32,114 nucleotides of DNA, taken from NCBI GenBank assembly GCA_023382575.1, contig JAHDWC010000023.1:1-32114 (forward strand). Reading direction: 5' to 3'. The notes under the pieces were generated by a model. That model saw only the letters and a list, made by a program, of their open reading frames with translations, ran no database searches and was not told the origin of the DNA. The stretch comes from Anaerolineales bacterium (GTDB taxonomy: Bacteria; Chloroflexota; Anaerolineae; Anaerolineales; Villigracilaceae). This document shows, one piece after another, positions 5,484-22,311 of the stretch. The number at the start of each line of letters is the position of its first letter. Position 1 is the first letter of the stretch. The position numbers and the translations under genes are program-made.

Positions 5484-6350
5484 CTATGTTAATTTTTCCA
5501 ACAACACATCCAACTCTTCGTTGGAATAATAATAGATCGTGACCGTGCCGCCTTTTTTGCCGTGCTTCAAAGCAACTTTGGTTCCCAAACTTTTTTGCAG
5601 ACGTTTCTCCACATCCGACACGTCTGCGTTCTTTCTCGGCTTGAAGGCTTTGACAGGTTTCTGTCCAGAACGATTCCGCACCAATTCTTCGGTCTGACGC
5701 ACATTCAACGATAAGTTGACCACCGTCTGGAATGCCGCTTCGCGCGCCTTTTGAGTGGATAAGCCCAACAAGGCGCGTCCATGCCCTTCAGTGATGGTTC
5801 CATCCGCAACCGCACGCTTGACAACATCCGGCAATTCCAACAGACGAATCGTATTCGTCACTGCCACGCGGCTTTTCCCGACCCGTTCAGCAACTTTCTC
5901 TTTAGAGAGACCAAAATCATCCGCTAATTGACGATAGGCTTCGGCCTCTTCCATCGGGTTCAAGTCTGCGCGTTGGACGTTTTCGATCAGCGCCAGTTCG
6001 AGCAATTCCTGGTTGTTGGCCTGTCTCATAATCACAGGAACCGTTTTCAGTCCGGCGCGCTGCGAGGCTTGTAAGCGACGTTCGCCCGCGATGAGGATGA
6101 ATGTCCCATCCCCTTTCGGCGAGACGATCAACGGTTGGATGACGCCATGTTCCCGGATAGAGGCGGCTAACTCATCGAGATCCGCCTCTTTAAAGTGGAT
6201 GCGCGGCTGGCGTGGATTGCGTTTGATATCTTCCACTGCCGCTTGTTGCACGCCTCCGCCATGATGACCTCCACTCGCAGGCGGCACAGAAGATTTTCCG
6301 CCGGGAATGAGTGCATCCAAACCTTTGCCAAGACCTTTTCGTTGAGCCAT
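5484..6350 (-). CDS. parB: Chromosome-partitioning protein ParB
   Basis: The 288-residue ParB binds parS sites and, as a CTP-dependent clamp, loads chromosome-segregation factors. The N-terminus has the short ParA-stimulating motif (KGLGKGLDALIPGG). The CTP/parS core starts at VEDIKRNPRQPR (about 40-50) and carries the GERR box (IAGERRLQASQRAG, about 88-100) and an ENVQRADLNPMEEAEAY stretch. A helix-turn-helix follows (FGLSKEKVAERVGKSRVAVT). The C-terminal segment (about 230-288) is the dimerisation domain. A strong AAGGAG site precedes the ATG. It lies 50 bp after parA, with a hairpin in the gap. No consensus parS site was noticed in the window, so its binding sites are probably elsewhere near the origin. 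Confidence 0.96.
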   Translation of the reverse strand: MAQRKGLGKGLDALIPGGKSSVPPASGGHHGGGVQQAAVEDIKRNPRQPRIHFKEADLDELAASIREHGVIQPLIVSPKGDGTFILIAGERRLQASQRAGLKTVPVIMRQANNQELLELALIENVQRADLNPMEEAEAYRQLADDFGLSKEKVAERVGKSRVAVTNTIRLLELPDVVKRAVADGTITEGHGRALLGLSTQKAREAAFQTVVNLSLNVRQTEELVRNRSGQKPVKAFKPRKNADVSDVEKRLQKSLGTKVALKHGKKGGTVTIYYYSNEELDVLLEKLT

Positions 6351-6380
6351 TCTTGCTCCTTAATTTCCGTATTACTAAAC

Positions 6381-6407
6381 GAACTGACCATGCTTTATAG
6401 TCAGTTC
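6381..6407 (-). repeat. 8-bp perfect inverted repeat in the parA-parB junction
   Basis: GAACTGAC (6381-6388) and GTCAGTTC (6400-6407) are perfect complements around an 11-base loop, and the right arm overlaps the parA stop codon. In the mRNA this would form a hairpin immediately after parA, without a U-run, so it is not a standard terminator. It could tune the ParA:ParB ratio by slowing decay or partly terminating, or act as a protein-binding site. The structure is seen; the role is inference. Confidence 0.6.
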
Positions 6408-7171
6408 TTGTCGCCTTTCAACAATTCCTTTGCCAGCGTCTCATACGCCTGTGCCCCTACGGACGTAGGCGCATACTCTGAAATTGGCAACCCATACGAG
6501 GGCGCTTCCGCGAGGCGCACACTGCGTGGAATGATGCTCTTGAATACCAAATTTGGAAAATGATTATTCACTTCCCGAACGACATCTGTCGCCAGATTCG
6601 TACGATTATCGAACATGGTCAGCACCACGCCGCGGACTTTGAGTTCGGGGAATAAGGCCGAACGCACGCGTTCGATGGTATTGGTCAACTGTCCCAGCCC
6701 TTCGAGGGCGAGATATTCACATTGTACCGGCACAATGACTCCGTCAATCGCAGCCATCAACCCGTTGACGGTCAGCAAGCCCAACGACGGCGGACAATCC
6801 ACCAAAACATAATCGTAGCGATTCGCCACCTTCAAGATCGCCTTACGCAAACGTGACTCGCGCGCGAGTTCATCCACCAATTCCACTTCCGCGCCCGCCA
6901 GAGAAGGCGAAGACGGCAACAGCGACAAGTTCAAACGTTCGTTCAACAAAACATAAGGGAAGATATCCTCTTCGCCCAATAAGGCTTCATATGTGCCGCC
7001 TTCCACGCCAAGCTTATCCACACCCAAACAAGACGTGGCATTTGCCTGCGGGTCGAGATCCACTACCAACACGCGCTGATTCAACTTCGCCAGATAAGCC
7101 GCAATATTGATCGTGGATGTGGTTTTGCCCACACCGCCTTTTTGATTCACCAACGTATAAATCTTCGTCAA
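6401..7171 (-). CDS. parA: Chromosome-partitioning ATPase ParA (Soj), TTG start
   Basis: ParA is a nucleoid-bound ATPase that moves ParB-parS complexes. The predicted 256-residue protein starts TKIYTLVNQKGGVGKTTST just after the initiator, with a deviant Walker A (KGGVGKTT). Walker A' (LVVDLDPQANATSCLG) and Walker B (DYVLVDCPPSLGLLT) follow, and the fold closes with KSIIPRSVRLAEAPSYG. The start is placed at a TTG (7171-7169) because a GGAGG site lies 7 bases upstream and the protein begins as ParA proteins do. An ATG further upstream at 7285 would add 38 residues unlike the family and lies deep in the pfkB gene. The TTG overlaps the pfkB stop codon by four bases (TTGA), suggesting translational coupling. 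Confidence 0.95.
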   Translation of the reverse strand: MTKIYTLVNQKGGVGKTTSTINIAAYLAKLNQRVLVVDLDPQANATSCLGVDKLGVEGGTYEALLGEEDIFPYVLLNERLNLSLLPSSPSLAGAEVELVDELARESRLRKAILKVANRYDYVLVDCPPSLGLLTVNGLMAAIDGVIVPVQCEYLALEGLGQLTNTIERVRSALFPELKVRGVVLTMFDNRTNLATDVVREVNNHFPNLVFKSIIPRSVRLAEAPSYGLPISEYAPTSVGAQAYETLAKELLKGDKN

Positions 7172-8019
7172 GATAAAACCTCCATCAAGCAATGCTCGAT
7201 CTCTTTTTGGGTGGGAATGCCCTGCAAGCCCACACGCGTCACGGAATACGCTGCGAGATGAGTTGCAAATCGCGCCGCCTCCCACGGGTCACGTGTACGC
7301 GCTAAACGCGTAAAAAATGCCGCTGCAAAAATATCCCCTGCCCCAGTCGAATCCACTTCCTCCACCGCAACGGGGCGGAAGCGACGTCGGTCTCCATGCC
7401 AGTGCAACACTGCACCCTGATCCCCTTCTGTGAGACAAAGCAAACGGGTGTGATGCGCCATCCATTCGACCAATTCCAGATCACGGTCAATGTCCTCGAT
7501 GCTCATCACCACGCCTCCCACCTGACCGAGAAGTTGTTCACTGTTCTCCCAGGCTTTGGCAAACACCGAACCCTTTTCATCCCAGTCACGCATCCAGCCT
7601 TGCGGCGTGACGCCCACCCACGATGAACCAAATTGTTTTGCCATTGCCCCATCCACTTCCTGCGCAATCGGCGCAAGGTGGACAATAGGCGTATCCCGCC
7701 AAATCGGTGGGACGTGGTCAAACAAAATCGGTGTGGCTTGATGATGCAAGGTCTGCTTGCGACCATGAGCTGTTTTGACGTTTTCAAAAATCGTGCTTTG
7801 TTCGGTTGGGATATTGACAATTTGCATCCCGTCGAGGGTATGCAGAGGCGCATCCTCCCCAGCCGAAGTGACAATGCCCACACGCATTCCCAGCGCCTGC
7901 GCCGTCAATGCTGCGTAGGAAACCGTCCCGCCAAGTTGTTTGCCTGTAGGCGTTAAATCCACTGCCACATGGCCAATCAACAGATAGTCCACAGGCTGCA
8001 GGGGTTCCGGTTCAGACAT
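7168..8019 (-). CDS. PfkB-family carbohydrate/nucleoside kinase
   Basis: The protein of about 283 residues has the ribokinase/PfkB fold. It opens with VDYLLIGHVAVDLTP, has the glycine-rich GGTVSYAALTAQALG, and carries the C-terminal PfkB signature VDSTGAGDIFAAAFFTRL with the catalytic Asp in GAGD. It phosphorylates a hydroxyl of a sugar, nucleoside or related compound using ATP; the substrate is not evident. The start at 8019 (MSEPEP) is preferred. The longer form from 8082 begins inside a terminator hairpin, while a TATAAT box ends six bases before 8019, giving an essentially leaderless message. The gene overlaps parA by four bases, an uncommon metabolic partner for the partitioning operon. 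Confidence 0.88.
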   Translation of the reverse strand: MSEPEPLQPVDYLLIGHVAVDLTPTGKQLGGTVSYAALTAQALGMRVGIVTSAGEDAPLHTLDGMQIVNIPTEQSTIFENVKTAHGRKQTLHHQATPILFDHVPPIWRDTPIVHLAPIAQEVDGAMAKQFGSSWVGVTPQGWMRDWDEKGSVFAKAWENSEQLLGQVGGVVMSIEDIDRDLELVEWMAHHTRLLCLTEGDQGAVLHWHGDRRRFRPVAVEEVDSTGAGDIFAAAFFTRLARTRDPWEAARFATHLAAYSVTRVGLQGIPTQKEIEHCLMEVLS

Positions 8020-8025
8020 GGATGA

Positions 8026-8031
8026 ATTATA
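8026..8031 (-). promoter_or_regulatory. -10 box of probable leaderless promoter for pfkB-parAB
   Basis: TATAAT on the minus strand ends six bases before the chosen ATG at 8019, so transcription would begin at or next to the start codon. The best -35 candidate (TTCCGT, 8050-8055, spacing 18) is weak. The box lies between the khpB terminator and pfkB, where a promoter is expected. Confidence 0.6.
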
Positions 8032-8060
8032 CCGTGATGGACGATAACCACGGAAATGGA

Positions 8061-8090
8061 TAAAAAGACCGTAGATTTTCATCTACGGTC
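8061..8090 (-). terminator. Rho-independent terminator after khpB
   Basis: A perfect 10-bp stem (GACCGTAGAT / ATCTACGGTC, 8067-8076 with 8081-8090) closes a four-base loop and is followed on the minus strand by a run of five U. It stands 21 bp after the khpB stop and marks the end of the rpmH-khpB unit. Confidence 0.9.
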
Positions 8091-8110
8091 CATGACTATC
8101 TTTAATCCAA

Positions 8111-8959
8111 TTATTCTTTCGGCACAATGACCACTTTGCGATAGGGTTCCTCGCCGGTACTTTCAGTTTTCACAGCGGGATGTCCGCGCAATTCGATATG
8201 AACGACACGGCGTTCATTCGAGGGCATTGGCTCCATTGTCACTTTGCGTCCGGTCTTGGTGACTTGGTCTGCCATGCGCTGTGCCAGTTGACGAATCTGC
8301 TTTTCGCGGCGCGAGCGATAGCCTTCCACATCGATGACCATCTGCACCCATTTCTGGGTCTGCTTGCCGACGATGAGCGAGGCGACATGTTGAAACGCCG
8401 CCAGAGTTTCGGCGCGACGCCCGATCAAGGCACTCAGGTCATCACCGCGCACATCCACTTGGATGACACGATGTTCATCGGTGCTGGATTCATCGTAATG
8501 AGCCGAGACTTGTGCGGTCATGCCCATGTGATAGATCAATTTGGAAACCACCTCTTCGGCAGTATCTAAAATGGAATCATGTTCCATGCGCTCGGTCTTC
8601 TTGGGGGCAGGCGGCGGCTCGACCGGTTTCTGCGCCGCAGGCTTCGGGGAAGTCTGTTTCGGCTCAGCAGGCTTTTTCTCGGGACGAGGTTTGGCTTCCT
8701 TCGCTTTCGGCTTGGATTCCGTTTTTTTGGCAGGCGCCGTTTTCGGTTCCGGAGGAGAAGCGGGTTTTTCCATCACAGGCGGGTTGACGGTGAGGAGCAC
8801 ACGCACCTGGCGTCCGCCCAATCCGAACAATCCCTTTGAACCAGAATCCAAAACTTCCACCGAGACGGCATCCGCCGTCAGACCGAGTTGAGCCAATCCT
8901 TGTTGGATGGCTTCTTCGACGGTCGGAGCAATGACTTCAAGCGTTGTTCGCTCGTTCAT
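8111..8959 (-). CDS. khpB: KhpB/Jag RNA-binding protein (Jag_N, KH, R3H)
   Basis: The 282-residue protein has the three parts of KhpB (Jag/EloR). These are an N-terminal Jag domain (1-60, with GSKGLFGLGGRQVRV), a long low-complexity linker rich in Lys, Pro, Ala and Glu (about 62-125), and a KH domain with GDDSALIGRR-like sequence (actual VRGDDLSALIGRRAETLAA). An R3H domain follows, carrying SNERRVVHIELRGHP. KhpB binds RNA in the cytosol and in Gram-positives influences cell elongation and envelope growth. A GGAGG site precedes the ATG. It is the last gene of the rpmH-rnpA-yidD-yidC-khpB cluster, the usual order, and is followed by a terminator. The linker is longer than in many Firmicutes homologues. 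Confidence 0.93.
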   Translation of the reverse strand: MNERTTLEVIAPTVEEAIQQGLAQLGLTADAVSVEVLDSGSKGLFGLGGRQVRVLLTVNPPVMEKPASPPEPKTAPAKKTESKPKAKEAKPRPEKKPAEPKQTSPKPAAQKPVEPPPAPKKTERMEHDSILDTAEEVVSKLIYHMGMTAQVSAHYDESSTDEHRVIQVDVRGDDLSALIGRRAETLAAFQHVASLIVGKQTQKWVQMVIDVEGYRSRREKQIRQLAQRMADQVTKTGRKVTMEPMPSNERRVVHIELRGHPAVKTESTGEEPYRKVVIVPKE

Positions 8960-8968
8960 GTAGCCTCC

Positions 8969-9754
8969 CTATTTTTTGGCTGGGGCTTTCTTGTTGCCAC
9001 CCGGAAGGAGATTGCGCCAGTTGGCGCGTCCTGTGGCTGCGTATTGGACGATACCCAAAATGTTGCTGGTAATGAAGTAGACCGAGATGCCCGAGGCGAA
9101 GGTCAGCGCGAACCAGCCGAGCAGGAGCGGCATGTAGATGCTCATCATGCCAGACATGGCGGCGGTTTGGTCGTTGGGGTTGGTGGTGGCGGGCATGGTC
9201 AGTTTGGTCTGCACGTAGGTGGTGAGCGCCACGACGATGGCAAGAGTGGGCAGGGCAAAACCAAGCACGGGAATCGATTCAGGTTGACCGAGATTCATCC
9301 ACAAGAACTTGCTGTTGAGCGGGATGATGTTTTCCAGATTTTGGAAGGGATAGACCGTACGCGCCAGTTTGAGCATGTCCAAGGGGGTGCCGGCCATGGC
9401 GCGGATAATGGCTTGGTACAAGCCGATGATGATCGGGAACTGGATCAGGGTTGGCAAGCAGGAAGCAAAGGGGTTGATGCCCTTTTCCTTGTAGATGCGC
9501 ATTTGCTCCTGGGCGAGTTTCTCGCGGTCTTTGGCGTATTTCTTTTGGATCTCCTGCCATTCCTTGTCGTTCTGGAGTTCCTGCATGGCTTGCGCGCCCT
9601 TCACCTGTGAGGCGTTGAGCGGCCAGGTGATAACTTTGATGAGGACAGTAAAGAGGATGATCGCAAGACCGAACATGTGCGGTCCATGACCAAGCACGTC
9701 ATAGATCCACAACAGAAGATTGGTCAGCGGTTGGATGATAAGTAGTTCCCACAT
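8969..9754 (-). CDS. yidC: YidC/Oxa1-type membrane protein insertase
   Basis: The 261-residue polytopic protein inserts proteins into the cytoplasmic membrane, alone or with SecYEG. It lacks the large periplasmic domain of proteobacterial YidC and resembles the short form. The conserved core starts at HGPHMFGLAIILFTVLIKV. A cytosolic amphipathic loop follows (about 60-95, NDKEWQEIQKKYAKDREKLA), then FPIIIGLYQAIIRAM and the later helices around LPTLAIVVALTTYVQTKL and MPLLLGWFALTFASGISVYF. The C-terminus is basic (NKKAPAKK), as expected for ribosome contact. No lipobox is visible. It follows the BamB-like lipoprotein gene by 12 bp and precedes khpB by 9 bp. Confidence 0.95.
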   Translation of the reverse strand: MWELLIIQPLTNLLLWIYDVLGHGPHMFGLAIILFTVLIKVITWPLNASQVKGAQAMQELQNDKEWQEIQKKYAKDREKLAQEQMRIYKEKGINPFASCLPTLIQFPIIIGLYQAIIRAMAGTPLDMLKLARTVYPFQNLENIIPLNSKFLWMNLGQPESIPVLGFALPTLAIVVALTTYVQTKLTMPATTNPNDQTAAMSGMMSIYMPLLLGWFALTFASGISVYFITSNILGIVQYAATGRANWRNLLPGGNKKAPAKK

Positions 9755-9766
9755 GGGTCGGATTCC

Positions 9767-10840
9767 TTAATTTTCAGGGGTGAACGTCCAGGCTTGTTTG
9801 CCTTCGACGTCGTAAGCGGCGAGGGAAAATTCAGCCTGATACGGAGCAACAAGGATCAACTCACCGGAGAAGACCGGCGTGGTGTAGATCTTTCCACCTG
9901 TTTCCTTGTCCCAGAGGATGCTTCCTGCACGATCCAGCGCGAAGAAAGTGCCTTCTTCGGTAGCGATGTAAATCTGTTCCCCCACCACCAGTGGACTCGC
10001 CGCAACTGGACCATCAGGTTGGACTGCATCCCAGTTCTGACGTCCCGTCGGCAGATCGAGCGAATAGACGAACCCGCTTAAATCGGCGTAATAGAGAGTC
10101 TCGCCGTCGAGAGCAGGAGTTCCCCAAATCCAGTTGGAGGCGGTGGCGATCACTTCATGGTCACCGTTTGGAGTGACAAATTCCACATTGGATGTGAACG
10201 AACCGACATATACGCCGTCTTCGCTCAAAACTGGGCTGCTGGGAATCGCGCCTCCCAGATCGACGGGATCACCAGACGCCCCATTGGAGGGATTCAAAAT
10301 GTGGAGATGATGGTCGAGTGAAGTGACATACAGCAGATTGCCATCCGTCACCGGCGCAGACCAGAGTGAGCCGCCCAGTTCGACCGGGTCGACAGCCTGA
10401 TTGCCATCGCCATCCAAAATATAAAGGAAGCCATCCGTGTTGGGAGCGTAAATGGTTCCATCGATGACGAGCGGAGATGCCACCCACGCGCCTTTCGCAC
10501 CGGAGAAAGGTTCTGTCCAATTTTCCTTGCCCGTTGCCGCATCCAAATTGACGAGGATGTGGTTGTTGCCAACGCTTCCAATGAGCAGTTGACCATCTTC
10601 GGTCAGAGTGGGACGCGCATAAAACAAGGTGCCATTGTCGGCTTCTTCGGGATAGCGCCAGACTTCCTTGCCACTTTCCAAATCTACAGCATAGATGAAG
10701 GAGCCAGCCGAGAGATAAGCATGGTCAGCATCGGCGGCGAGACCAGGCCAGTTGTTAGCGAGAGGTTGTCCGGTACAAGCGCTGAGAAAAAGCGCACCGA
10801 TGACAAGCATCAAAAAAAACATCAAGCGTTTGGTTTTCAA
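9767..10840 (-). CDS. BamB-like PQQ-repeat lipoprotein
   Basis: The predicted protein of about 357 residues has a lipoprotein signal: basic KTKR, a hydrophobic core, then the lipobox LSAC, so it should be anchored on the outer face of the membrane. The rest consists of seven to eight PQQ/BamB-type repeats (for example GSFIYAVDLESGKEVWRYP and GTFFALDRAGSILWDKETGG), forming a beta-propeller. The start is put at a TTG (10840) with AGGAG ten bases upstream because it gives a textbook signal peptide. An ATG at 10885, overlapping the yidD stop by four bases, is the longer alternative (372 residues). It sits inside the conserved yidD-yidC pair. A role as a scaffold in exported-protein assembly is inference from position; enzymatic PQQ use is unlikely. 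Confidence 0.82.
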   Translation of the reverse strand: MKTKRLMFFLMLVIGALFLSACTGQPLANNWPGLAADADHAYLSAGSFIYAVDLESGKEVWRYPEEADNGTLFYARPTLTEDGQLLIGSVGNNHILVNLDAATGKENWTEPFSGAKGAWVASPLVIDGTIYAPNTDGFLYILDGDGNQAVDPVELGGSLWSAPVTDGNLLYVTSLDHHLHILNPSNGASGDPVDLGGAIPSSPVLSEDGVYVGSFTSNVEFVTPNGDHEVIATASNWIWGTPALDGETLYYADLSGFVYSLDLPTGRQNWDAVQPDGPVAASPLVVGEQIYIATEEGTFFALDRAGSILWDKETGGKIYTTPVFSGELILVAPYQAEFSLAAYDVEGKQAWTFTPEN

Positions 10841-10881
10841 ATTAACAGTACTCCTGAATCGCCAGGAATTGGCGAATAATG

Positions 10882-11184
10882 TCATGGAACGGGGTCGTAC
10901 CCGCCCGGGTTGAAGGGATTGCAGCGCAGCACACGCCAGACCGCCATGAAAAACCCCTTGAAGGCGCCATGTTTATAAACCGCCTGATACCCATAATGCG
11001 AGCAGGATGGATAAAAGCGGCAGGTATTTGCGGGAAGTCCTGGAGAGATCGCCATCTGATAGAAACGAATCAATGCCAGCAGCAGGATGCGTGGCATGTT
11101 TCCCAGCGTACGCGGCATGTCGCGCAGACGCGGTTCGTGGGAGTAATCGTGTAAATGGAATTGCGTTTCGGGTTCAGGATTCAT
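10882..11184 (-). CDS. yidD: YidD membrane-protein insertion efficiency factor
   Basis: The 100-residue protein shows the YidD core: an amphipathic helix ([17 protein letters not shown]), then [15 protein letters not shown] and [18 protein letters not shown] with its three Cys. YidD is a small peripheral membrane protein that assists YidC-dependent insertion. The first 28 residues, rich in His, Glu and Arg, go beyond the usual start; an internal Met at residue 23 or 30 is possible. The gene overlaps rnpA by four bases at its start, as is common for this pair. Confidence 0.95.
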
Positions 11185-11540
11185 CCAGGGGACTCGTCCA
11201 CAGGGAGGAGCAGGTTGGCGCGTTGAAGGAGATTCGTCAGCGCGGCGCGGGTATCTGTCAGCGTGGCAGTTGCCAAGGCGGGACGGGCGATCAGGATCAG
11301 GTCCCAGCCGGAGGCGATGGAGGGAAGCAAGGGGCGCATGGCTTCACGAAGAAGCCGTTTGGTCCGGTTACGATGAACCGCAGTCCCCACTGTTTTCCCT
11401 GCCGTCACACCCACCCGAATGTGCTCGTGCGTTTCGCAGGCTTGCGTTACTAACACAACAAGCGGATGGGCATAGGACTTGCCAGTTCGCCGCACCCGCT
11501 TGAAGTCTTCAGATCGGGACAGTCGAAATCGTCTCTGCAC
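11181..11540 (-). CDS. rnpA: Ribonuclease P protein component
   Basis: The 119-residue basic protein is the protein subunit of RNase P, which removes 5' leaders from pre-tRNA. It has the N-terminal [19 protein letters not shown], the central strand [20 protein letters not shown] and the signature [12 protein letters not shown]. Its length is typical. It lies 37 bp after rpmH and overlaps yidD by four bases. The C-terminus (LLPVDESPG) is a little longer than the core. Confidence 0.95.
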
Positions 11541-14249: not shown

Positions 14250-14693
14250 TTACCTGGTCTTGATGGTGATGGTCTTGGGTTTGACCTCTTCCGCCTTGGG
14301 GAGTGTGATGGTCAGGATGCCGTTTTCGAACTCGGCTTTGGCTTTGTCTGCCACAACCTGCGTAGGCAGGGCAATCGAGCGTTCAAATGTGCCCCAGCGC
14401 TGCTCACGGATGTGATACGCCTTCTCTTTGGTTTCGTTCTCCTGTTTGACCTCGCCTTTGAGGGAGAGCAGTTCGCCAGTGATGTTGATTTGCACCTCGT
14501 CCGCTTTGATGCCGGGGAGGGCGGCTTTCACCACAACCTCGTTATCGGTCTGGTACATATCCACGGCAGGGACAGACCAGGCATTGCTGGACAGGCTGAG
14601 CGGGCGGGTGAACGCATCGTCGAAGAGGCGATCCATGGCTTCGCGCAGGGTCATCATCTCACGAGCGGGTTCCCAACGAATGATACTAGACAT
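14250..14693 (-). CDS. Hsp20/alpha-crystallin small heat-shock protein
   Basis: The 147-residue protein is an ATP-independent holdase chaperone. It has an N-terminal arm (IIRWEPAREMMTLREAMDRL), the alpha-crystallin domain (about 45-135, with KAALPGIKADEVQINITGEL and IREQRWGTFERSIALP), the GILTITLPK C-terminal strand and a short tail ending KPKTITIKTR with an IxI-like contact. An excellent AGGAGG site lies six bases before the ATG. It has its own terminator and is separated from the signalling unit by another. No CIRCE element was found upstream, so HrcA control is not supported. Its position next to a J-domain gene is notable but the unit is separate. Confidence 0.94.
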   Translation of the reverse strand: MSSIIRWEPAREMMTLREAMDRLFDDAFTRPLSLSSNAWSVPAVDMYQTDNEVVVKAALPGIKADEVQINITGELLSLKGEVKQENETKEKAYHIREQRWGTFERSIALPTQVVADKAKAEFENGILTITLPKAEEVKPKTITIKTR

Positions 14694-14798: not shown

Positions 14799-15515
14799 CT
14801 ATTCTTTGCTGCGTTTGAAATCCACAAAGCGGTAGCCCACGCCTCGCTCAGTGAGAATGTAGACCGGGTTGGCGGGGTCTTTCTCCAATTTTTGGCGCAG
14901 GTAGTTAATGTAGAGGCGGACGTAATGTGGCTCGTCGCGGTATTCGTAGCCCCAGACTTTTTGGAGCAATTGGTCATGCGAGACCACCCAACCCGCATTC
15001 TGCACAAGATGATACAGCAGGCGGTATTCGGTCGGGCGGAGTTTGACGAGTTTGCCTTCAAGCCAGATCTCGCGACGCTCAAAGTCAATTTTGAGGCGTT
15101 TATCGATCTCGATCAGCCCATGCATGGAGCCGCTCGTCCCTTCGGTGCGACGTAGCACGGCTTTGATGCGGCTGACCAATTCACGTGGACTGAATGGCTT
15201 GGTGATGTAATCATCTGCGCCATGTTCAAGTCCGCGCACGCGGTCATCTTCTTCGCCTTTGGCGGTCAGCATGATGACGGGGACATTGCTGAAATCGCGG
15301 ATGGTTTCAAGGACATCGAAGCCGTCGATATCCGGCATCATCACGTCGAGCAGGATAAGGTCGGGGGTGAAATCGCGGATCTTTTGGATGGCTTGTTTGC
15401 CGTTGAACGCCTCGCCCACCTGAAAGCCATCGTGCTCGAGGTTCATGCGGATGAAGCGCACCATGCGCTCTTCGTCGTCCACCACAAGGATGCGGCGTCT
15501 GTCCATATCTGCCAT
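14799..15515 (-). CDS. OmpR/PhoB-family response regulator in the kinase-phosphatase unit
   Basis: The 238-residue regulator has a receiver domain (about 6-122) with LVVDDEERM, phosphoacceptor Asp57 in [11 protein letters not shown] and Lys106 in [11 protein letters not shown] winged helix (about 136-232) carries [14 protein letters not shown] and ends [11 protein letters not shown]. It closely resembles the regulator at 898-1593 in receiver layout. No histidine kinase is adjacent. It starts 3 bp after the 80-residue unknown and is the last gene of a unit headed by a Ser/Thr kinase, so its activity may be set by Ser/Thr phosphorylation or by a distant kinase. A second start at residue 4 ([11 protein letters not shown]) is possible. 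Confidence 0.93.
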
Positions 15516-15518
15516 GTT

Positions 15519-15761
15519 TTATTCCCTCACAAAACCGATGATCTTTTCCTCTTCGGAATCGCCAAGGACTTCGATGAAGCTTATCTTCACCAGCGGCCAG
15601 ATCACCTTGACGGTATTATGGTCGACATAGTGCAAATCCTTGCCGTCTTTCTGGCGCGGATTGACCACCACAATGATATTGTCGGTGGGCTTGGGAAGTT
15701 CGTCTATCTCACCGAGCACGGAGGCTTCATTCGGGATGTGTAAAATGACGGTGTGTGCCAT
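15519..15761 (-). CDS. Small unknown protein in the kinase-phosphatase unit
   Basis: The 80-residue protein is not recognised. It begins AHTVILHIPNEASVLGEIDE and alternates hydrophobic and charged residues in several likely strands (NIIVVVNPRQK, TVKVIWPLVKISFIEVLG), so a small all-beta or barrel fold is plausible. There is no signal peptide, membrane helix or Cys. Its tight spacing (4 bp after the FHA gene, 3 bp before the response regulator) and the conserved-looking frame argue that it is real and translated with its neighbours. A vague likeness to small uncharacterised beta-barrel families was noticed and not relied on. Function unknown; an adaptor to the regulator or FHA protein is inference. 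Confidence 0.75.
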   Translation of the reverse strand: MAHTVILHIPNEASVLGEIDELPKPTDNIIVVVNPRQKDGKDLHYVDHNTVKVIWPLVKISFIEVLGDSEEEKIIGFVRE

Positions 15762-15765
15762 GATG

Positions 15766-16278
15766 TTATTGTTCCTTGAATAAGATCTGCATTTTCAATT
15801 TTCCAAGCGCGATGATGTCACCATGATTGACGATCTGCTCGATATTGGGGGAAAGACGCTTTCCATTGATATAGGTCCCATTGGCAGAGCCGAGGTCCAT
15901 GAAGATGATGCGTCCAGCCTCACGCTTGATAACCGCATGCAAACGGGATACTCCCGCCGCATAGGCCTGGAACGGAGAAAGGTCAATATCTGGCATGATG
16001 GGTTGCCCCTCGCTGATGCGTCCCATTGTGAACTCATTGCGCGACGAAAGCGGCAAGACCTGGCCGGTATCCAGCAGGTGCAGGCTGCCCCAGGCATCGG
16101 TCACATCAAAGTCTTGATAGGCTTCCTCGTCCCCGGCTTTCTTGCTCACCTTCTTGAATTTGTCCGTCGAAATGGTCTGTGTGATGAGCGCATCCCTGCC
16201 GATTAACTGCGCGCCGCACTCCGCGCAAAACATCGCCCCAGACATATTTGCATGCCTGCAATTGGAACAGACTATCAT
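15766..16278 (-). CDS. Zinc-ribbon/FHA-domain phosphothreonine-reader protein
   Basis: The 170-residue protein has an N-terminal zinc ribbon (Cys4, Cys7, Cys18, Cys21 in MIVCSNCRHA and MFCAECGAQL). A linker of about 45 residues contains several Ser, Thr and Asp positions. A complete FHA domain follows (about 75-168) with the GR of FTMGRISEG, SRLHAVIKREAG, and MDLGSANGTYINGKRL. FHA domains bind phosphothreonine, so this is the expected reader for the kinase in the same unit. The linker Thr residues (DALITQTIST) could themselves be phosphorylated, as in GarA-like proteins. It overlaps the J-domain/VWA gene by four bases, pointing to equal production. Confidence 0.93.
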   Translation of the reverse strand: MIVCSNCRHANMSGAMFCAECGAQLIGRDALITQTISTDKFKKVSKKAGDEEAYQDFDVTDAWGSLHLLDTGQVLPLSSRNEFTMGRISEGQPIMPDIDLSPFQAYAAGVSRLHAVIKREAGRIIFMDLGSANGTYINGKRLSPNIEQIVNHGDIIALGKLKMQILFKEQ

Positions 16279-17762
16279 CCTGCTTTCTCCTTGCCACTTT
16301 TTAATAAGAGCGCTCGAGTTTTATATTTGATATCCTTACTGCCGCTGGCACTGAATGAATGCATCCTTTCCAAGTTATCTGCTTCGAACAGAGCCGTTTT
16401 GGCCAGCGAATGTTCACCCTGCGAAAGCAGATGAGTGGCAAGATTTTGCAAGTGGCGGACAGCCACATCGATCTGCCCCGCATCGACCGCAGTTTGGGCA
16501 CGTTCCTGCATCCGATAGAGCGTCAAGCGCGACAGCGCACTGAGGATCCGCGTTGGGGGTGGGTCTGCTGATGGGTTTGGTTGAATCTCACGGGTCAGCT
16601 TGAGGCGAATGGGCGGCAATGGCATGGGGTTCGCATTGACAGACGTCTTCAGTGAGCCATCGATCAATGTAACTTCATTTCCACTTAGTGCCTCTGCCCC
16701 AACGACTACTTCCAGCAGGACGTGCAAGGGTGTATCTCTCAAGATCGGACCGAGGTGCAGGGGCGCTTGAAGGGCAACTGTGCCGCCTTCAGGTTGCAGG
16801 CGAAAGGCATAATTGAAGCGGATACCGGGTTGCTCTTTGAAATCCAAGATGACTTCGTCGGCATAGGTGCTGACCAATGCCTTGAATTTATCAATGAGCA
16901 GACGCTCGATATCTTTCGGATTGGAAATGTACGCTGATGAGCCGCCAGTTTTGCTGGCCAGCGCATCGAGGAAGATATCATTCCATTCGTGCCCCACACC
17001 CATGCCGGTGATGCCGACATTTTGAGCGGCGGCTTCTTCTGCCAATTGCAGACAGGCCTGCTCGTCGCCATAGGTGTGACCATCTGTCAGCAGGATGATG
17101 TGATTGACACGCGACGGGTCGAGCGTGCGGCGGATCTCACGCATTCCAGCTTCGAGTCCGTGATAGATCTCGGTCGCGCCGGATGTTTGCATCATCTGAA
17201 TGCGACCTTCCTGCTTTTTCTTATCCAAACTTATTGAAGCAGGCACGATGACTTCGGCTCGGTCACTGAATGCCACAATGCTCAGAACATCTTGCGGACG
17301 TAAACTCCGCAAGAGTTGGATAGCTGTGGCTTTCAAAATATCCATCTTCTCGCCCTGCATGGATGTGGAACGATCCAACACGAGGCACAGGTTCAGCGGC
17401 GGCGCCGGGACTTGATCCGGTTTTTCTTCACGCGGTCCCACCTCAAAGAGAATGTACACCAACTGGTCTTCCCCCAGCCGCACTAAATTTGGGCGACTGA
17501 AAAAGACTTCATGTTTGATGAGGCGGTTTCCCTCATCGATCTCCGGCGGCAATGTCGCATCATATTGATTGCGACGCTTGGGATTCGAAAGCACTTCATA
17601 CGCCTGCTGGACGGAGAGAAAGAGTTCCGTCTCACCAGCGGCGACGTTTTTATCGGGATGCAAACGCTGGGCAGCGTCGAGATATGCGCGTTTGATCTCT
17701 TCCTGCGACGCGTCGCGGAAAACACCAAGGACAGCATAATAATCGGGCTTGCCAACAGGCAT
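16275..17762 (-). CDS. J-domain/von Willebrand A-domain fusion protein
   Basis: The 495-residue protein joins an N-terminal J domain (about 5-68, DYYAVLGVFRDASQEEIKRA, HPD at 35-37 and the end RRNQYDATLP) to a von Willebrand A domain. The VWA (about 124-310) has a full MIDAS: Asp130-x-Ser132-x-Ser134 in LVLDRSTSMQG, Thr in SGATEIYHG and Asp in LLTDGHTYGD. A beta-rich region (about 310-410) and a helical C-terminus (about 415-490, LSRLTLYRMQERAQTAVDAG) follow. The intact HPD means it could stimulate an Hsp70. The VWA part would bind a partner through a divalent metal. No signal peptide or membrane helix is seen. It starts 2 bp after the PP2C gene and overlaps the FHA gene. The substrate it delivers is unknown. 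Confidence 0.92.
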   Translation of the reverse strand: MPVGKPDYYAVLGVFRDASQEEIKRAYLDAAQRLHPDKNVAAGETELFLSVQQAYEVLSNPKRRNQYDATLPPEIDEGNRLIKHEVFFSRPNLVRLGEDQLVYILFEVGPREEKPDQVPAPPLNLCLVLDRSTSMQGEKMDILKATAIQLLRSLRPQDVLSIVAFSDRAEVIVPASISLDKKKQEGRIQMMQTSGATEIYHGLEAGMREIRRTLDPSRVNHIILLTDGHTYGDEQACLQLAEEAAAQNVGITGMGVGHEWNDIFLDALASKTGGSSAYISNPKDIERLLIDKFKALVSTYADEVILDFKEQPGIRFNYAFRLQPEGGTVALQAPLHLGPILRDTPLHVLLEVVVGAEALSGNEVTLIDGSLKTSVNANPMPLPPIRLKLTREIQPNPSADPPPTRILSALSRLTLYRMQERAQTAVDAGQIDVAVRHLQNLATHLLSQGEHSLAKTALFEADNLERMHSFSASGSKDIKYKTRALLLKSGKEKAG

Positions 17763-17764
17763 GA

Positions 17765-18688
17765 TTATCCAACCATTTGTGCAATGGCGACGGTGATGTT
17801 ATCGGGTCCGCCAGCGGTATTGGCCGCTTCCACCAAACGCTGACAGGCTTGATGCAGGGTTGTTGCTTCGTTGAGGAGGCGCACGATGTCCTTCTCATTA
17901 ATCACGCCCCACAATCCATCACTGCACAGCATGAGATATCCCGCTTGTGGGAATGGGATCGTAAAAATATCCGCCTCAAGGGTCTCGCCTTGGCCGAGCG
18001 CACGAATCAAAACATTTCGGTGCGGGAAGTTTTCCACTTCGTCGCGACTGAGATGTCCGAGTTCTTCGAGGCGTTTGACGAGCGAATGATCACGGGTCAG
18101 CGCTTCCATCCTGCCATCAGGGTAGACCGCATAGGCGCGGCTATCCCCCACATGACCAATCGTCACCTGCTGACCGAGGACAAGCGCAGCCGTCACTGTG
18201 GTGCCACTACCTGGCGCCTCACGCTGGATGTATTGATGCGCTTCGAGGATCGAAGCTTCCATCACCTCTTGAAGCGATTCCTGCAAAGACTGTGTTGGCA
18301 TATTGAAAAGGAAGGAATGGAATTTTTTGGCAATGTTTCCACCGATAATGCGGATGGCTGCGTTGCTTGCCACCTCTCCAAATTGATGCCCGCCCATGCC
18401 GTCGGCAACGATATACAAACCAAACGGCACGCTTTCGGTGCTGCCAGAGATGGTCGTCGTTAGCGAGAGGACGCTATCTTCATTGTGCTCGCGCTGCTTC
18501 CCAACGGATTGCCCAACGCTTGCGACCAACTGCTTCATTTCATATTTTGGCGTCTGGCTGGCAATGATCGAACTGATCTGCTGGTCCGTCAACGGTGCCG
18601 TGGTGGCATTATCTGCCGCCGCCACCGACACCTTCGGTTTTTCCTGAACTTCCTTACCGCCAAATAGTTTTCGAAAGAAATCAGCCAC
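17765..18688 (-). CDS. PP2C-family Ser/Thr protein phosphatase
   Basis: The 307-residue protein has an N-terminal extension (1-55) containing a short basic hydrophobic stretch (ADFFRKLFGGKE) and then a complete PPM/PP2C catalytic domain. Its metal and phosphate motifs are QREHNEDSV, VADGMGGHQFGEVAS, IGHVGDSRAYAV, LMLCSDGLWGV and AGGPDNITVAIAQ. It should remove phosphate from Ser/Thr residues using Mn or Mg. It lies 11 bp after the kinase gene and 2 bp before the J-domain/VWA gene, so it is the natural antagonist of that kinase. No membrane segment is visible, in contrast with many PrkC/PrpC-type phosphatase partners that act on membrane kinases. Confidence 0.95.
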   Translation of the reverse strand: MADFFRKLFGGKEVQEKPKVSVAAADNATTAPLTDQQISSIIASQTPKYEMKQLVASVGQSVGKQREHNEDSVLSLTTTISGSTESVPFGLYIVADGMGGHQFGEVASNAAIRIIGGNIAKKFHSFLFNMPTQSLQESLQEVMEASILEAHQYIQREAPGSGTTVTAALVLGQQVTIGHVGDSRAYAVYPDGRMEALTRDHSLVKRLEELGHLSRDEVENFPHRNVLIRALGQGETLEADIFTIPFPQAGYLMLCSDGLWGVINEKDIVRLLNEATTLHQACQRLVEAANTAGGPDNITVAIAQMVG

Positions 18689-18699
18689 AAGAACTCCTT

Positions 18700-20589
18700 T
18701 TAGGCGAACAGAGCGTAGACATGATGGTCTGTTGAGCCAAAATATACAATGTCATCGAACACTACCGGCGAGCCGGTAATGGGTTTTTGAGATTCAAACT
18801 TCCAGCGCAGGCGTCCCGTGCGATATTCAAGGCAGTACATACTGCCATCCACAGAGCCGCAGTAGATGGAGTCCTTGTAAATGACAGGCGAACTACTGAC
18901 CTGATTTTCCGTCTTGAAGCGCCAAACTTCCTTGGCTGTACGCGCATCTATGCAATAGATGAAGCCATCAGCCGCGCCGACGAAGATAAGGTCGTCAGAC
19001 ATGATCGGCGAAGAAATCGAACCTTTGCCGAGGCGGAACTTCCAAATCGCCCAACCGCTCTTCGCATCCAACGCGTAGAGAGTTCCATCAAGCGACGCAA
19101 CATAGATAGCCTGCGCATTCAAAATGGGCGACGATGTAATGCCTCGCTTCGCCTGAAAGCGCCACTTCAAAGAACCGCGGAAATCAAGCGCATAAAAGGA
19201 ACCACTCTCCGTGCCGAAATAGATCATCTCATTTGCAACAAGCGGTGTGGAATGGATCGGTCCATCGGTGGAGAACTTCCAGACCGCACGTCCGCTGTTG
19301 ACGTTGACAGCATGCAGATCCTGATCGTCCGAGCCGAAGAACACATGCCCATCCGCGATGCGCGGCGAGGAATAGATTTTCCCGTCTGTGTAATACGTCC
19401 ACACCACTTTACCGGTGCGGGAATTAACCACATGCAGGCGTTTATCTTCCGAGCAGAAGAACACATTATTTTCAAACACCACCGGGCGCGAGACAATCCC
19501 GCCATCGGTTGGGTATTTCCACTGGAATTGGCCGTCGGCGGCGCTCAACGAATAGAGGTTATTATCGTAACAGCCAATGAACAGATTTCCCTGACTCAAA
19601 ACCGGCGTGCCGCGAATCTCGTCTTCGCATTTGAACGACCACAATGGCTTCACACCGCCGCTGGAAACCGGCAATGCAGAGGTGATCTTGGATAATGCGC
19701 CCGTCTTGCGCGCCACGTTCATCAACGCATCTTTCATCGCCTCAGCATTGGGGAAGCGTTCGCCGGGATTGTATTGCAGGGCAGTCGTAATCACCGCTTC
19801 AAACTCAACCGAAACGTTGGTATTGATGCGTCGAATGGGTCGTTCGGAGAAGGAGAAAGGCGGCTCCAGACGTGGGTCGCGCCGTGTAATGGCGTGATGC
19901 AACGTCGCCCCCAACGAGTAGACATCTGCCAGTTGGGTGGCTTCGCCGCGATACTGCTCTGGCGGAGAATACCCTTCTGTGCCGATCATCGTCCCTTTTT
20001 GTCCCACCTGGAAGGTCTTGGCGATGCCAAAGTCCACCAGCACCACATCCCCATTGTGATTGATCATCACATTGGACGGTTTCATATCACGGAAGACAAT
20101 CGGATCTGGCTTGTGGCTGTGCAGATACGCCAATACATCGCAAAGTTGGATGGCCCAACTAATGACCTGATCTTCCGGCAAAAAACCGTTCGTGTCATTA
20201 ATGACCGTTTCAAGGTCTTTTCCATGCACGAATTCCAGTACCAGATACGACCGGTCATCGTGTGAAAAATAATCATAAATACGAGGAATGGAAGGGTGGT
20301 TGAGCGTGGCCAACAGATTTGCCTCACGCTCAAAATTCTGAACAATCGTCTGACGCACCAGCGGGTCGGGCGCCATGTTGATCATTTCCTTGACCGCCAC
20401 CAGTTTGACGACGTTGGGGAAGTGCATATCACGGGCACGATAAACCGAACCCATGCCGCCAACGCCAATCACATCCTGAACGTTATAGCGGTTGACCAGC
20501 GTCACGCCGGGTTGTAGTTGCTGGCGCGGCTTCTGGTCCCCAGACCCATATCCCGAACCGATAGGTGAAGTAATATTTCTCGTTTCCAT
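18700..20589 (-). CDS. Cytosolic Ser/Thr protein kinase with C-terminal eight-repeat PQQ propeller
   Basis: The 629-residue protein starts with a short disordered Gly/Gln-rich tail, then a kinase domain (about 35-290). It has a Gly-rich loop (IGVGGMGSVY, 41-50), Lys67 in VAVKE, Glu89, the catalytic loop FRDMKPSN (Asp168, Asn173), Asp186 of DFG, and EGYSPPEQY. The usual His of HRD is Phe166, which is tolerated in some bacterial kinases. A linker (about 291-314) leads to eight 38-40-residue PQQ/BamB repeats (about 315-629), each ending like YFGSTDHHVYAL and followed by a WxF strand, giving an eight-bladed propeller. There is no transmembrane helix, so the propeller is predicted to lie in the cytosol, where it may bind substrates or a ligand. 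A promoter lies 22 bp upstream of the ATG. Confidence 0.94.
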   Translation of the reverse strand: METRNITSPIGSGYGSGDQKPRQQLQPGVTLVNRYNVQDVIGVGGMGSVYRARDMHFPNVVKLVAVKEMINMAPDPLVRQTIVQNFEREANLLATLNHPSIPRIYDYFSHDDRSYLVLEFVHGKDLETVINDTNGFLPEDQVISWAIQLCDVLAYLHSHKPDPIVFRDMKPSNVMINHNGDVVLVDFGIAKTFQVGQKGTMIGTEGYSPPEQYRGEATQLADVYSLGATLHHAITRRDPRLEPPFSFSERPIRRINTNVSVEFEAVITTALQYNPGERFPNAEAMKDALMNVARKTGALSKITSALPVSSGGVKPLWSFKCEDEIRGTPVLSQGNLFIGCYDNNLYSLSAADGQFQWKYPTDGGIVSRPVVFENNVFFCSEDKRLHVVNSRTGKVVWTYYTDGKIYSSPRIADGHVFFGSDDQDLHAVNVNSGRAVWKFSTDGPIHSTPLVANEMIYFGTESGSFYALDFRGSLKWRFQAKRGITSSPILNAQAIYVASLDGTLYALDAKSGWAIWKFRLGKGSISSPIMSDDLIFVGAADGFIYCIDARTAKEVWRFKTENQVSSSPVIYKDSIYCGSVDGSMYCLEYRTGRLRWKFESQKPITGSPVVFDDIVYFGSTDHHVYALFA

Positions 20590-20610: not shown

Positions 20611-20639
20611 ATTATAGTGTGCGTTTGGGGGAAATGCAA
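20611..20639 (-). promoter_or_regulatory. Promoter of the kinase-phosphatase unit
   Basis: The minus strand carries TTGCAT (20634-20639), a 17-base spacer and a perfect TATAAT (20611-20616). Transcription would start about 15 bases before the kinase ATG. It faces away from a plus-strand promoter 35 bases to the right, so the two units are divergently transcribed. Confidence 0.75.
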
Positions 20640-20673
20640 ATACCAGGAATTGCAATTTTGTCGGGTAATACAC

Positions 20674-20702: not shown

Positions 20703-20710
20703 GCGTGCTT

Positions 20711-21334
20711 GTGAGAATCCTAGCCGTAAGCGATCAAATCGTGGACCGCATCTATACCCTTGCCCCGAACGGGCATTTTCGTGATGTTGACCTGATTCTG
20801 GGCTGCGGCGACCTGCCTTACAACTACCTTGAATATATCGTAACGGTGTTGAACAAGCCGCTCTATTACGTACCTGGAAATCACGACCCGGAATTCAACC
20901 CACGCGACCTGCGCTCAAAGGCGGAAGGCGGCATCAATCTGGACCTCAAAACGGTGTGTTACAAAAAATACCTGATCGGCGGTTTTGGCGGGTCAGTCCG
21001 CTACCGACCCAATGGCACCAACCAGTACACACAAATGGAGGCGAGCCAACGTGCCTTTCAGATGATGCCCAGCCTGTTCGGCAACTTTGTCCGCCACGGA
21101 CGCGCCCTGGATATTCTCATCACCCATTCCCCCCCATTTGGTATCCATGATGATACTGATCTGGCTCATAATGGACTGAAAGCCTTGAACTGGCTCATCC
21201 GCACCGTCAAACCGCGTTATCTGCTTCACGGACATACACACTTTTACCGGAAGAACATCTCCGATAGCGAGACGACCATCAATGGTACGACCATCATCAA
21301 TGTCTATCCCTACAAGGTTATCGACATCCCGTAA
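20711..21334 (+). CDS. Calcineurin-like metallophosphoesterase
   Basis: The protein of about 207 residues is a dinuclear-metal phosphoesterase. It has RILAVSDQIVD at the start, CGDLPYNYLEY (GD motif), VPGNHDPEF (GNHD), ITHSPPFG and LHGHTHFYR (GHxH). The first motif is normally DxH; here the His position is Ile, so one metal ligand is missing or supplied otherwise. A GTG at 20711 is preferred because it gives the usual MRILAVSD-type start and fits the promoter. A GTG at 20705 adds two residues. The substrate may be a nucleotide, cyclic nucleotide or phosphoprotein; none can be assigned. It is divergent from the Ser/Thr kinase unit and shares its control region. Confidence 0.85.
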   Translation: MRILAVSDQIVDRIYTLAPNGHFRDVDLILGCGDLPYNYLEYIVTVLNKPLYYVPGNHDPEFNPRDLRSKAEGGINLDLKTVCYKKYLIGGFGGSVRYRPNGTNQYTQMEASQRAFQMMPSLFGNFVRHGRALDILITHSPPFGIHDDTDLAHNGLKALNWLIRTVKPRYLLHGHTHFYRKNISDSETTINGTTIINVYPYKVIDIP

Positions 21335-21462: not shown

Positions 21463-22311
21463 ATGTCAGACGTAATTGATTCACAAGTTCGGTCCGATTT
21501 TAGCAGGGCGCGATTCAAGTCATTTATCAACCAGGTATTTTCCGTCCTTTCAGGGAAGCGCAATAATCTGCTTTCCTATGACGATATCAAGGAAAAGCTA
21601 CGCATTGGCGGCCCCATCTATCAGGGAGTAAAAACTGTCCGCGTGGACCAGATCGCGGGTAGCCTGAACCGCTACCATGAATTTGACAGCACCTTCCTCC
21701 CCAAGGAAGATCAACTTGCCAGCCGCTGGCAGAAGGTCGATCGCGCTTTTTATGAAGATGTACACCTGCCGCCCGTCGTTCTTTACAAAGTAGGACAGGT
21801 CTATTTTGTGGTGGATGGACATCACCGCGTTTCAGTCGCGCGCGGACAAGGTCAGGAATTCATCGAAGCCGAAGTGCGCGAATGCGCCACGCGCGTCAAC
21901 ATCACGCCGGATATCAAACCGGAAGATTTGGAAATCCTCGGCTCGAAAGTGGATTTTCTCGAACGCACCGGGCTGGACCGGTTGCGCCCCAATGCTAACA
22001 TCAAGCTTAACATCCCCGACGGTTTTACGCGTATGCTCGAGCACATCGCCGTGCATCGCTACTTTATGGGACTGGATTTCAAACGTGATATTTCTGAACA
22101 GGAAGCGGTCGTACACTGGTATGACACAGTGTATCTGCCCATTGTGAAGATCATCCGCAAGAGCAACCTGCTCGATGAATTCCCCGACAAAACCGAAGGC
22201 GACCTGTATCTCTGGACGCTCGACCATCAACATTACTTATATAAAGAAGAAGGTCAACCGCTTCAGCCGCCAGAGGCTGCCGCCAAACAATTCATCAAAG
22301 AAAACGAATAA
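21463..22311 (+). CDS. ParB-fold protein of unknown function
   Basis: The 282-residue protein carries a ParB/sulfiredoxin-like segment (about 55-140). Regularly spaced strands lead to PPVVLYKVGQVYFVVDGHHR (DGHHR at 118-122) and VSVARGQGQEFIEAEVRE. This resembles the GERR-type nucleotide-binding box of ParB but with HHR. There is no recognisable helix-turn-helix after it. The C-terminal half (about 150-282) is mainly helical, with a conserved-looking ending around DLYLWTLDHQHYLYKEEG. It does not look like a partitioning ParB; a nucleotide-binding or transferase role is possible. An AAGCGAG-type ribosome site precedes the ATG. It stands alone between a metallophosphoesterase and a hairpin terminator. 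Confidence 0.8.
   Translation: MSDVIDSQVRSDFSRARFKSFINQVFSVLSGKRNNLLSYDDIKEKLRIGGPIYQGVKTVRVDQIAGSLNRYHEFDSTFLPKEDQLASRWQKVDRAFYEDVHLPPVVLYKVGQVYFVVDGHHRVSVARGQGQEFIEAEVRECATRVNITPDIKPEDLEILGSKVDFLERTGLDRLRPNANIKLNIPDGFTRMLEHIAVHRYFMGLDFKRDISEQEAVVHWYDTVYLPIVKIIRKSNLLDEFPDKTEGDLYLWTLDHQHYLYKEEGQPLQPPEAAAKQFIKENE

Follow-up and report, generated by a model that had tools for sequence, protein, structure and literature searches.

A candidate ArnAB-type phospho-switch in Chloroflexota whose ArnB-like scaffold carries an N-terminal J domain

The ArnA-ArnB motility repression module of Sulfolobus acidocaldarius (structures 8s05 and 5a8i; paralog 5a8j) is the closest described relative of the system considered here. 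It pairs ArnB, a beta-sandwich split by a VWA domain and followed by a helical bundle, with ArnA, a zinc-finger and FHA protein encoded next to it (Saci_1210, Saci_1211), and it is controlled by a Ser/Thr kinase and phosphatase (PMC6509490, PMC12852372). Unphosphorylated ArnB holds ArnA loosely: the ArnA zinc finger sits on the beta1-beta2 loop of ArnB and on the link to the bundle (PMC12852372). Once the kinase ArnC has phosphorylated the ArnB bundle, the FHA domain binds tightly (PMC12852372, PMC6509490). According to PMC12852372, the downstream action of the switched complex in Sulfolobus is still to be settled. In this study, we analyzed a 32,114-nt stretch of DNA, referred to as the window, from an Anaerolineales bacterium (GCA_023382575.1, contig JAHDWC010000023.1) and found a gene at 16275..17762 on the minus strand for a 495-residue protein, here called J-ArnB, in which an N-terminal J domain precedes a beta-sandwich split by a VWA domain and a C-terminal helical bundle. 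The J domain names a candidate output for such a switch, namely Hsp70.

The Chloroflexota module and the Sulfolobus pair share the split sandwich, the VWA domain and the bundle, the ligands of the metal-ion-dependent adhesion site (MIDAS), the cysteine spacing of the finger, the FHA domain, and the adjacency of the two genes. The Chloroflexota module differs in being bacterial, in its N-terminal J domain, in a kinase with a PQQ-type propeller, in a phosphatase of the PP2C rather than the PP2A family, and in an operon that also holds an Sm-like protein and an OmpR-type regulator; it is known here from sequence and models. Neither the fold nor the type of switch is new. What would be new is a bacterial ArnAB-type switch that shares one operon with a kinase and a phosphatase and is fused to a J domain. 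Bacterial folds like that of ArnB have been noted in Catenulispora and in E. coli YfbK, with the blueprint described as mostly not serving ArnAB-style multi-phosphorylation, and the words DnaJ, J domain, and Chloroflex are absent from the main text of the same source (PMC12852372). Among the papers listed by searches of an open-access library, which leaves most subscription journals outside, none describes a J-VWA fusion in its title or abstract start. A bacterial version with its kinase and phosphatase in one operon offers a compact, testable system. If our reading is true, a single polypeptide would tie chaperone targeting to Ser/Thr phospho-signalling, and the family would illustrate how one constant scaffold can keep, inactivate, or lose a J domain.

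The J-ArnB reading frame starts with ATG and runs for 495 codons on the minus strand, while frame 1 of the plus strand over the same interval is interrupted by stops; conservation across relatives rules out a chance or spurious open reading frame. An initial annotation of this DNA, which gave no strand, had placed a J domain and a MIDAS-intact VWA domain in one soluble protein. Both domains are there, and solubility fits the sequence as read by eye. Pfam assigns residues 7-68 (17559..17744, minus strand) to the DnaJ family with an E value of 6.4e-21, covering positions 1-63 of the 63-position profile, and the His-Pro-Asp (HPD) loop claimed for residues 35-37 is intact (codons 17652-17660). An AlphaFold2 model, built from an alignment of 32 diverse family members that also served for our conservation counts, has J-domain helices at 8-12, 20-34, 44-59, and 61-70. 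Alignment at helices II and III, chosen beforehand as decisive for the assignment, is therefore borne out by both profile and model (helices 20-34 and 44-59). The four helices of a J domain, with HPD placed between the second and third, are what is looked for in an Hsp70 co-chaperone, and J-ArnB has them. What follows this domain is no part of a DnaJ: in the Pfam scan (20 of the 33 translated window genes), only DnaJ and VWA families were found in J-ArnB at E <= 0.001, with no G/F region, CTD I/II, or DnaJ zinc finger after the J domain, and in the model a beta-sandwich begins at residue 82. As the initial annotation held, the protein is not a truncated DnaJ, since an ArnB fold comes next.

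The model (mean pLDDT 88.8, pTM 0.86) comprises sandwich strands at 82-110 and 299-394, a VWA region at 123-297 inserted between them, and a four-helix bundle at 404-485. On the minus strand, the first strands correspond to 17433..17519, the Pfam VWA domain (residues 124-279, E 2.1e-16) to 16926..17393, the second sandwich half, the fastest changing of the folded parts, to 16581..16868, and the bundle, the counterpart of the part of ArnB that is phosphorylated in Sulfolobus, to 16308..16553. The four top Foldseek rows were a VWA protein of Catenulispora, two ArnB chains of the ArnAB complex, and the ArnB paralog. By VIA-align the model matches ArnB (8s05_A) with Z 30.6 over 371 residues, model residues 80..488 aligning with ArnB residues 2..382, so that the three-domain ArnB fold is present as a whole. 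The closest fold match is Catenulispora acidiphila 4fx5 (Z 34.2 over 397 residues), in which, by sequence, only the VWA stretch matched the family profile, with no J stretch. The ArnB paralog (5a8j) follows at Z 26.6 over 352 residues, and below it come an inter-alpha-inhibitor with Z 25.2 over 330 residues and, with Z of about 22-25, single VWA domains aligned over about 180 residues. By sequence profile, the ArnB chain 8s05_A also ranks first among VWA rows (3.9e-22). The MIDAS is complete, as had been claimed: D130, S132, S134, T197, T226, and D227 are identical in 32/32 diverse members (codons for DxSxS at 17361-17375, T197 at 17172-17174, and T226-D227 at 17082-17087, minus strand), and both MIDAS motifs occur in 109/109 unique proteins with J and VWA domains. 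J-ArnB D130, S134, T197, T226, and D227 correspond to the ArnB metal ligands D46, S50, T110, T135, and D136 (PMC12852372), with the same spacing within the pairs D130/S134 and T226/D227 as within D46/S50 and T135/D136. By position, the loop at 89-99 of the model probably corresponds to the loop of ArnB on which the zinc finger docks. In the bundle, T482 is kept in 31/32 members, and the other bundle threonines are less kept.

The likeness extends to the next gene. Its product (15766..16278, minus strand; identified by Pfam and by a profile against the PDB) has a four-cysteine zinc finger (C4, C7, C18, C21) followed by an FHA domain, and its start overlaps the J-ArnB stop by 4 bases, an overlap seen for 64 of 78 FHA genes among the best 80 of 545 relatives taken from one scan of genome contigs. 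A profile of 20 relatives of this protein, run against PDB sequences, ranked ArnA first of 49 (5a8i, 6.9e-16) and matched the ArnA chain of the ArnAB complex at 1.1e-15 over positions 3-164, which span finger and FHA domain. All four cysteines are invariant in 20/20 relatives, with the spacing of ArnA C21-C24-C35-C38 (ArnA positions from PMC12852372); FHA positions G86, R87, S111, H114, and N133 are likewise invariant. The window thus holds an adjacent zinc-finger and FHA partner of the ArnA kind. Because residues 80-488 of J-ArnB match ArnB and the profile of the next gene finds ArnA first, the locus looks like an ArnA/ArnB-type phospho-switch plus a J domain; pairs of VWA and FHA proteins of this kind are already known as phospho-switches, and what has been added is the J domain. 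The initial annotation had noticed the J domain, the MIDAS, and the phospho-signalling setting, all of which stand, but had overlooked both the ArnB-type nature of the VWA part and the ArnA-like character of the FHA protein.

Upstream of J-ArnB, and likewise on the minus strand, lie genes for a PP2C-type Ser/Thr phosphatase (17765..18688; Pfam, NCBIfam) and a Ser/Thr kinase with a C-terminal PQQ-type beta-propeller (18700..20589; Pfam, NCBIfam). The kinase has an AfsK-like architecture; in NCBIfam the Streptomyces AfsK model scores best, though far below its cut-off. Kinase and phosphatase, sharing an operon with J-ArnB, make up a candidate cognate pair. Downstream of the ArnA-like gene follow an 80-residue protein predicted from its modelled structure to form an Sm/LSm-like barrel (15519..15761) and an OmpR-type response regulator (14799..15515; Pfam), the last gene of the conserved run. 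The run is constant: among the same best 80 relatives, whose titles all point to Chloroflexota (many to Anaerolineales or Anaerolineae, one to Herpetosiphon), and with loci lacking contig room on the relevant side left out of each count, we found PP2C in 75/75 loci, the kinase, the FHA gene, and the Sm-like protein in 71/71 each, and the regulator in 66/66. A Hsp20 gene comes next in the window (14250..14693, minus strand; Pfam). Its membership of the operon is doubtful and, because it lies downstream in just 33/57 loci with room, it was not counted in the operon.

The HPD loop is kept in 105/109 unique J+VWA proteins, many of which are closely related to each other and which exclude proteins shorter than 380 residues from the J start and J matches above 1e-2 (for this reason L047). 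The other four are three losses (L054, L057, L058) and one sequence interrupted by a run of N (L018). Residue by residue, the diverse set retains H in 28/32, P in 29/32, and D in 28/32. Mean identity of its members to the window protein is 54% in the J domain, 50% in the sandwich and VWA part, and 51% in the bundle, falling to 30% in the second sandwich half and 29% in the linker. In the least saturated pair examined, L006/L082, the ratio of nonsynonymous to synonymous substitution (dN/dS) rises from about 0.03 in the bundle and 0.04 in the VWA part to about 0.08 in the J domain and 0.13 in the second sandwich half, most other pairs being saturated at synonymous sites. From the identity and dN/dS figures, the J domain is under selection as part of J-ArnB.

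In a first sample of 41 genomes including the bacterium's own, 36/41 match J-ArnB at E <= 1e-30, far beyond chance, although in two of the 36 (G025, G039) the match starts only at residue 78 or 84 and the J domain is absent. Each has one copy, except that in G013 the gene is divided between two contigs. Matches occur in 24/25 members of the genus, counting the bacterium's own genome, and, in a second sample of 400 genomes in which up to 3 candidates were scored per genome and J-less proteins count as matches, in 25/25 of the own family and in 125/400 altogether. As a side observation, some genomes of other classes (L070, L071, L074; families f36, f46, f72) have at least 3 J-less ArnB-like VWA proteins, some of which adjoin PP2C, kinase, or FHA genes, which suggests several parallel ArnAB-like modules there. 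DnaK is present in 40/40 genomes tested, and the own genome encodes two full-length DnaK proteins and three J-domain proteins at E <= 0.001, J-ArnB among them. Its two DnaK genes are at G000:C25 and G000:C52, one of them just upstream of a J-domain gene.

Beyond the domain make-up, the matches to ArnB and ArnA in fold and motifs, the operon, and the conservation shown above, phosphorylation, two binding modes for the ArnA-like protein, stimulation of DnaK, the coupling between these, and the client are steps that we infer as follows. The kinase, perhaps sensing through its propeller, would phosphorylate the scaffold. The C-terminal helical bundle would be the most likely target, and PP2C would remove the modification. 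As in Sulfolobus, the unphosphorylated scaffold would hold the zinc-finger/FHA protein loosely through the finger and the phosphorylated scaffold would hold it tightly through an FHA-phosphothreonine contact. The J domain would recruit DnaK to whichever partner the scaffold holds, its access being set by the switch, and DnaK would either reset the complex or remodel the partner. About 11 residues join the J domain to the first sandwich strand, an edge strand with the putative zinc-finger-dock loop; as the J domain adjoins this putative dock, we propose that phosphorylation state changes J access and DnaK recruitment. Our trust in these parts differs. That an ArnAB-type module is present we hold with good confidence, and the J domain probably works with DnaK; on both holding together in one protein, an ArnB-type phospho-switch scaffold with a J domain that works with DnaK, we are evenly balanced. 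Gating of the J domain by phosphorylation is a tentative idea. Equally speculative is the model of a Chloroflexota device in which the kinase/PP2C state of an ArnB/Sec23-like scaffold decides when the J domain delivers DnaK to a bound ArnA-like, Sm-like, or regulator partner, and we would put forward only with reserve the corollary that, in a signalling switch with two states, the chaperone provides the output or resets the system.

Several observations weigh against this proposal. Within the scaffold, ITIH4 comes close behind ArnB in the VWA profile (2.1e-20), so that VWA sequence alone does not single out ArnB, and Pfam ArnB_C (PF18677) matches 2/32 members, weakly (best E 0.014); the ArnB likeness therefore rests on the whole fold and the partner. 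The HPD region is one of the less certain parts of the model (mean pLDDT 72 for residues 31-40), and HPD is lost with the J fold kept in L047 as well as in the three losses named above, members that could serve as natural inactive controls for the Hsp70 step. A J-less VWA protein occupies the same operon place in L063/L064, from one family of the same order of bacteria, and in other classes (L066-L069) the kinase, PP2C, FHA, and Sm-like genes keep their order around a J-less VWA gene, with the regulator missing; further J-less copies occur elsewhere in other-class genomes. Conversely, J-bearing L062, L072, and L073 have no FHA or Sm-like gene adjoining: L062 and L072 have kinase and PP2C with no FHA or Sm-like match alongside, and L073, on a short contig, has an unrelated gene next. 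L059 lacks PP2C between kinase and scaffold, and L059 and L060 lack the regulator. From these counter-cases, the phospho-switch can do without a J domain, and a J-scaffold can do without an adjacent ArnA. The distribution is also uneven, with no match in 4/16 genomes from other families of the order in the first sample (12/16 match) and, in the second, in 7/11 other genomes of the order (4/11 match) and 10/19 other genomes of the class (9/19 match); by the match counts in both samples, J-ArnB is a regular feature of its own family and has a scattered occurrence outside it. In the 40 genomes no link was seen between DnaK copy number and J or HPD status: at E <= 1e-50, fragments included, DnaK matches number two each in the four HPD-lost genomes, one in J-less G025 and G039, one to four in other J-less genomes, and one to four in HPD-bearing ones. 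The claim in the initial annotation of a dedicated Hsp70 co-chaperone is accordingly weakened by the HPD losses and by J-less VWA proteins in the same operon place. Its suggestion that metal-dependent adhesion selects the clients is conjectural.

The history of these losses bears on how the J domain is to be understood. On a 44-row tree of the region from VWA to the end, the absence of J requires 4 changes and loss of HPD 3; in each case well supported branches force 2 of these. At least one J-domain loss is likely, because J-less L063/L064 nest within a J-bearing clade. Deep branches lead to the four J-carrying rows of other classes (L060, L062, L072, L073), a placement consistent with an old fusion on a tree whose root is not known, and a 67-column tree of J domains neither shows nor rejects a single origin of these domains (p-AU 0.251). 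The three HPD changes with the J fold retained in four members, the J-less proteins at the equivalent operon position of L063/L064 and L066-L069, and a MIDAS more strictly kept than HPD would all suit a J domain that is only a structural or docking part of a real ArnAB-type switch and does not work with DnaK. We regard this as unlikely, though to be taken seriously, since HPD is retained in nearly all members, whereas a domain with a purely structural role should have shed the loop in more of them. The intact J domain and MIDAS would also be found in an ordinary, specialized quality-control J protein whose VWA domain binds clients, with Hsp20 cooperating and the kinase and phosphatase as mere neighbors; Hsp20 is indeed next in the window and in over half of the loci with room, and peptide-binding VWA co-chaperones have been described for MoxR systems (PMC7159879). 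It is, however, the kinase, PP2C, FHA, and Sm-like genes, and not Hsp20, that are present in every locus with room, and the scaffold is built like the signalling protein ArnB, leaving this explanation improbable.

The TerY-P triad consists of a TerY-family VWA protein, a kinase, and a PP2C phosphatase. A triad of this or the GAP1-N2 type, serving in conflict or stress systems as a defense against phage or stress, would account for the kinase, PP2C, and VWA genes lying together, and such triads have been described, with DnaJ-fused components beside HSP70 elsewhere (PMC7159879). We consider it very improbable here. Among PADLOC models (E <= 0.01), none match J-VWA, the FHA protein, or the Sm-like protein, although kinase and PP2C do match; among the 33 translated window genes, 20 of them Pfam-scanned, no GTPase, toxin, or effector gene was recognized; and J-ArnB is present in a single copy per genome, the split gene aside. 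A vWA-TerF-like Pfam model matches 5/32 members (best E 0.0011), no TerY model having been run as such. The GAP1-N2 systems, which combine HSP70/GrpE with DnaJ fusions or join kinase, PP2C, and VWA, share with our locus the same kinds of parts (DnaJ, VWA, PP2C, kinase), but in the former DnaJ is fused to an FNIII-repeat protein and the kinase-PP2C-VWA sets are a separate theme (PMC7159879). GAP1-N2 systems also have a zinc-ribbon GTPase with GAP1, whereas no GTPase was found in the 20 Pfam-scanned proteins and none by eye in the 33, with no GAP1 model run.

Two broader families place the proposed switch with a DnaK-recruiting J domain in context. Class C J-domain proteins are those with a J domain "plus anything", and J-ArnB resembles them in its intact HPD and in having neither G/F region nor DnaJ zinc finger; it differs in its fusion to an ArnB-type scaffold within a kinase/phosphatase operon and in that its J domain can be lost. 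The Sec23/Sec24 core of COPII has a similar arrangement of VWA, beta-sandwich, and helical parts, and its zinc finger is alike (PMC12852372; Foldseek matches), but J-ArnB lacks a gelsolin domain and no coat function is suggested.

For the 80-residue protein there is no Pfam or NCBIfam match. Its model (pLDDT 86.5) finds Sm/LSm folds in Foldseek with a best E of 0.013 and none <= 0.001, and by VIA-align the best Z is 8.2 over 70 residues (3by7), declining to 6.7 at rank 50, modest values that show no function. H8, R36, K41, and R79 are invariant in 22 aligned relatives. In the relative L050, the ArnA-like and Sm-like genes are separated by another kinase gene, whose product has an FHA-like C-terminus (6225-7448, 7346-7708). 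Just upstream of the kinase gene in the window is a promoter-like site, TTTGCA-18-TATAAT, with 10/12 matches (20611..20640, minus strand); as 4 promoter-like sites were found in the region against 5.1 expected, it is backed by position alone. A hairpin separates the regulator and Hsp20 genes, in a region where terminator-like sites are not above chance (7 against 7.1 expected). Transcribed away from the operon on the plus strand are a metallophosphatase gene (Pfam; 20705-21334) and a gene for a 282-residue protein with no Pfam or NCBIfam match (21463-22311), and these two lie beside the operon in many of the best 80 loci. Further along the minus strand, genes for ParB, ParA, and Jag-like proteins, assigned by reading, and for YidC, YidD, and the RNase P protein, assigned by Pfam, cluster at 5484-11540, a set usually found near the replication origin.

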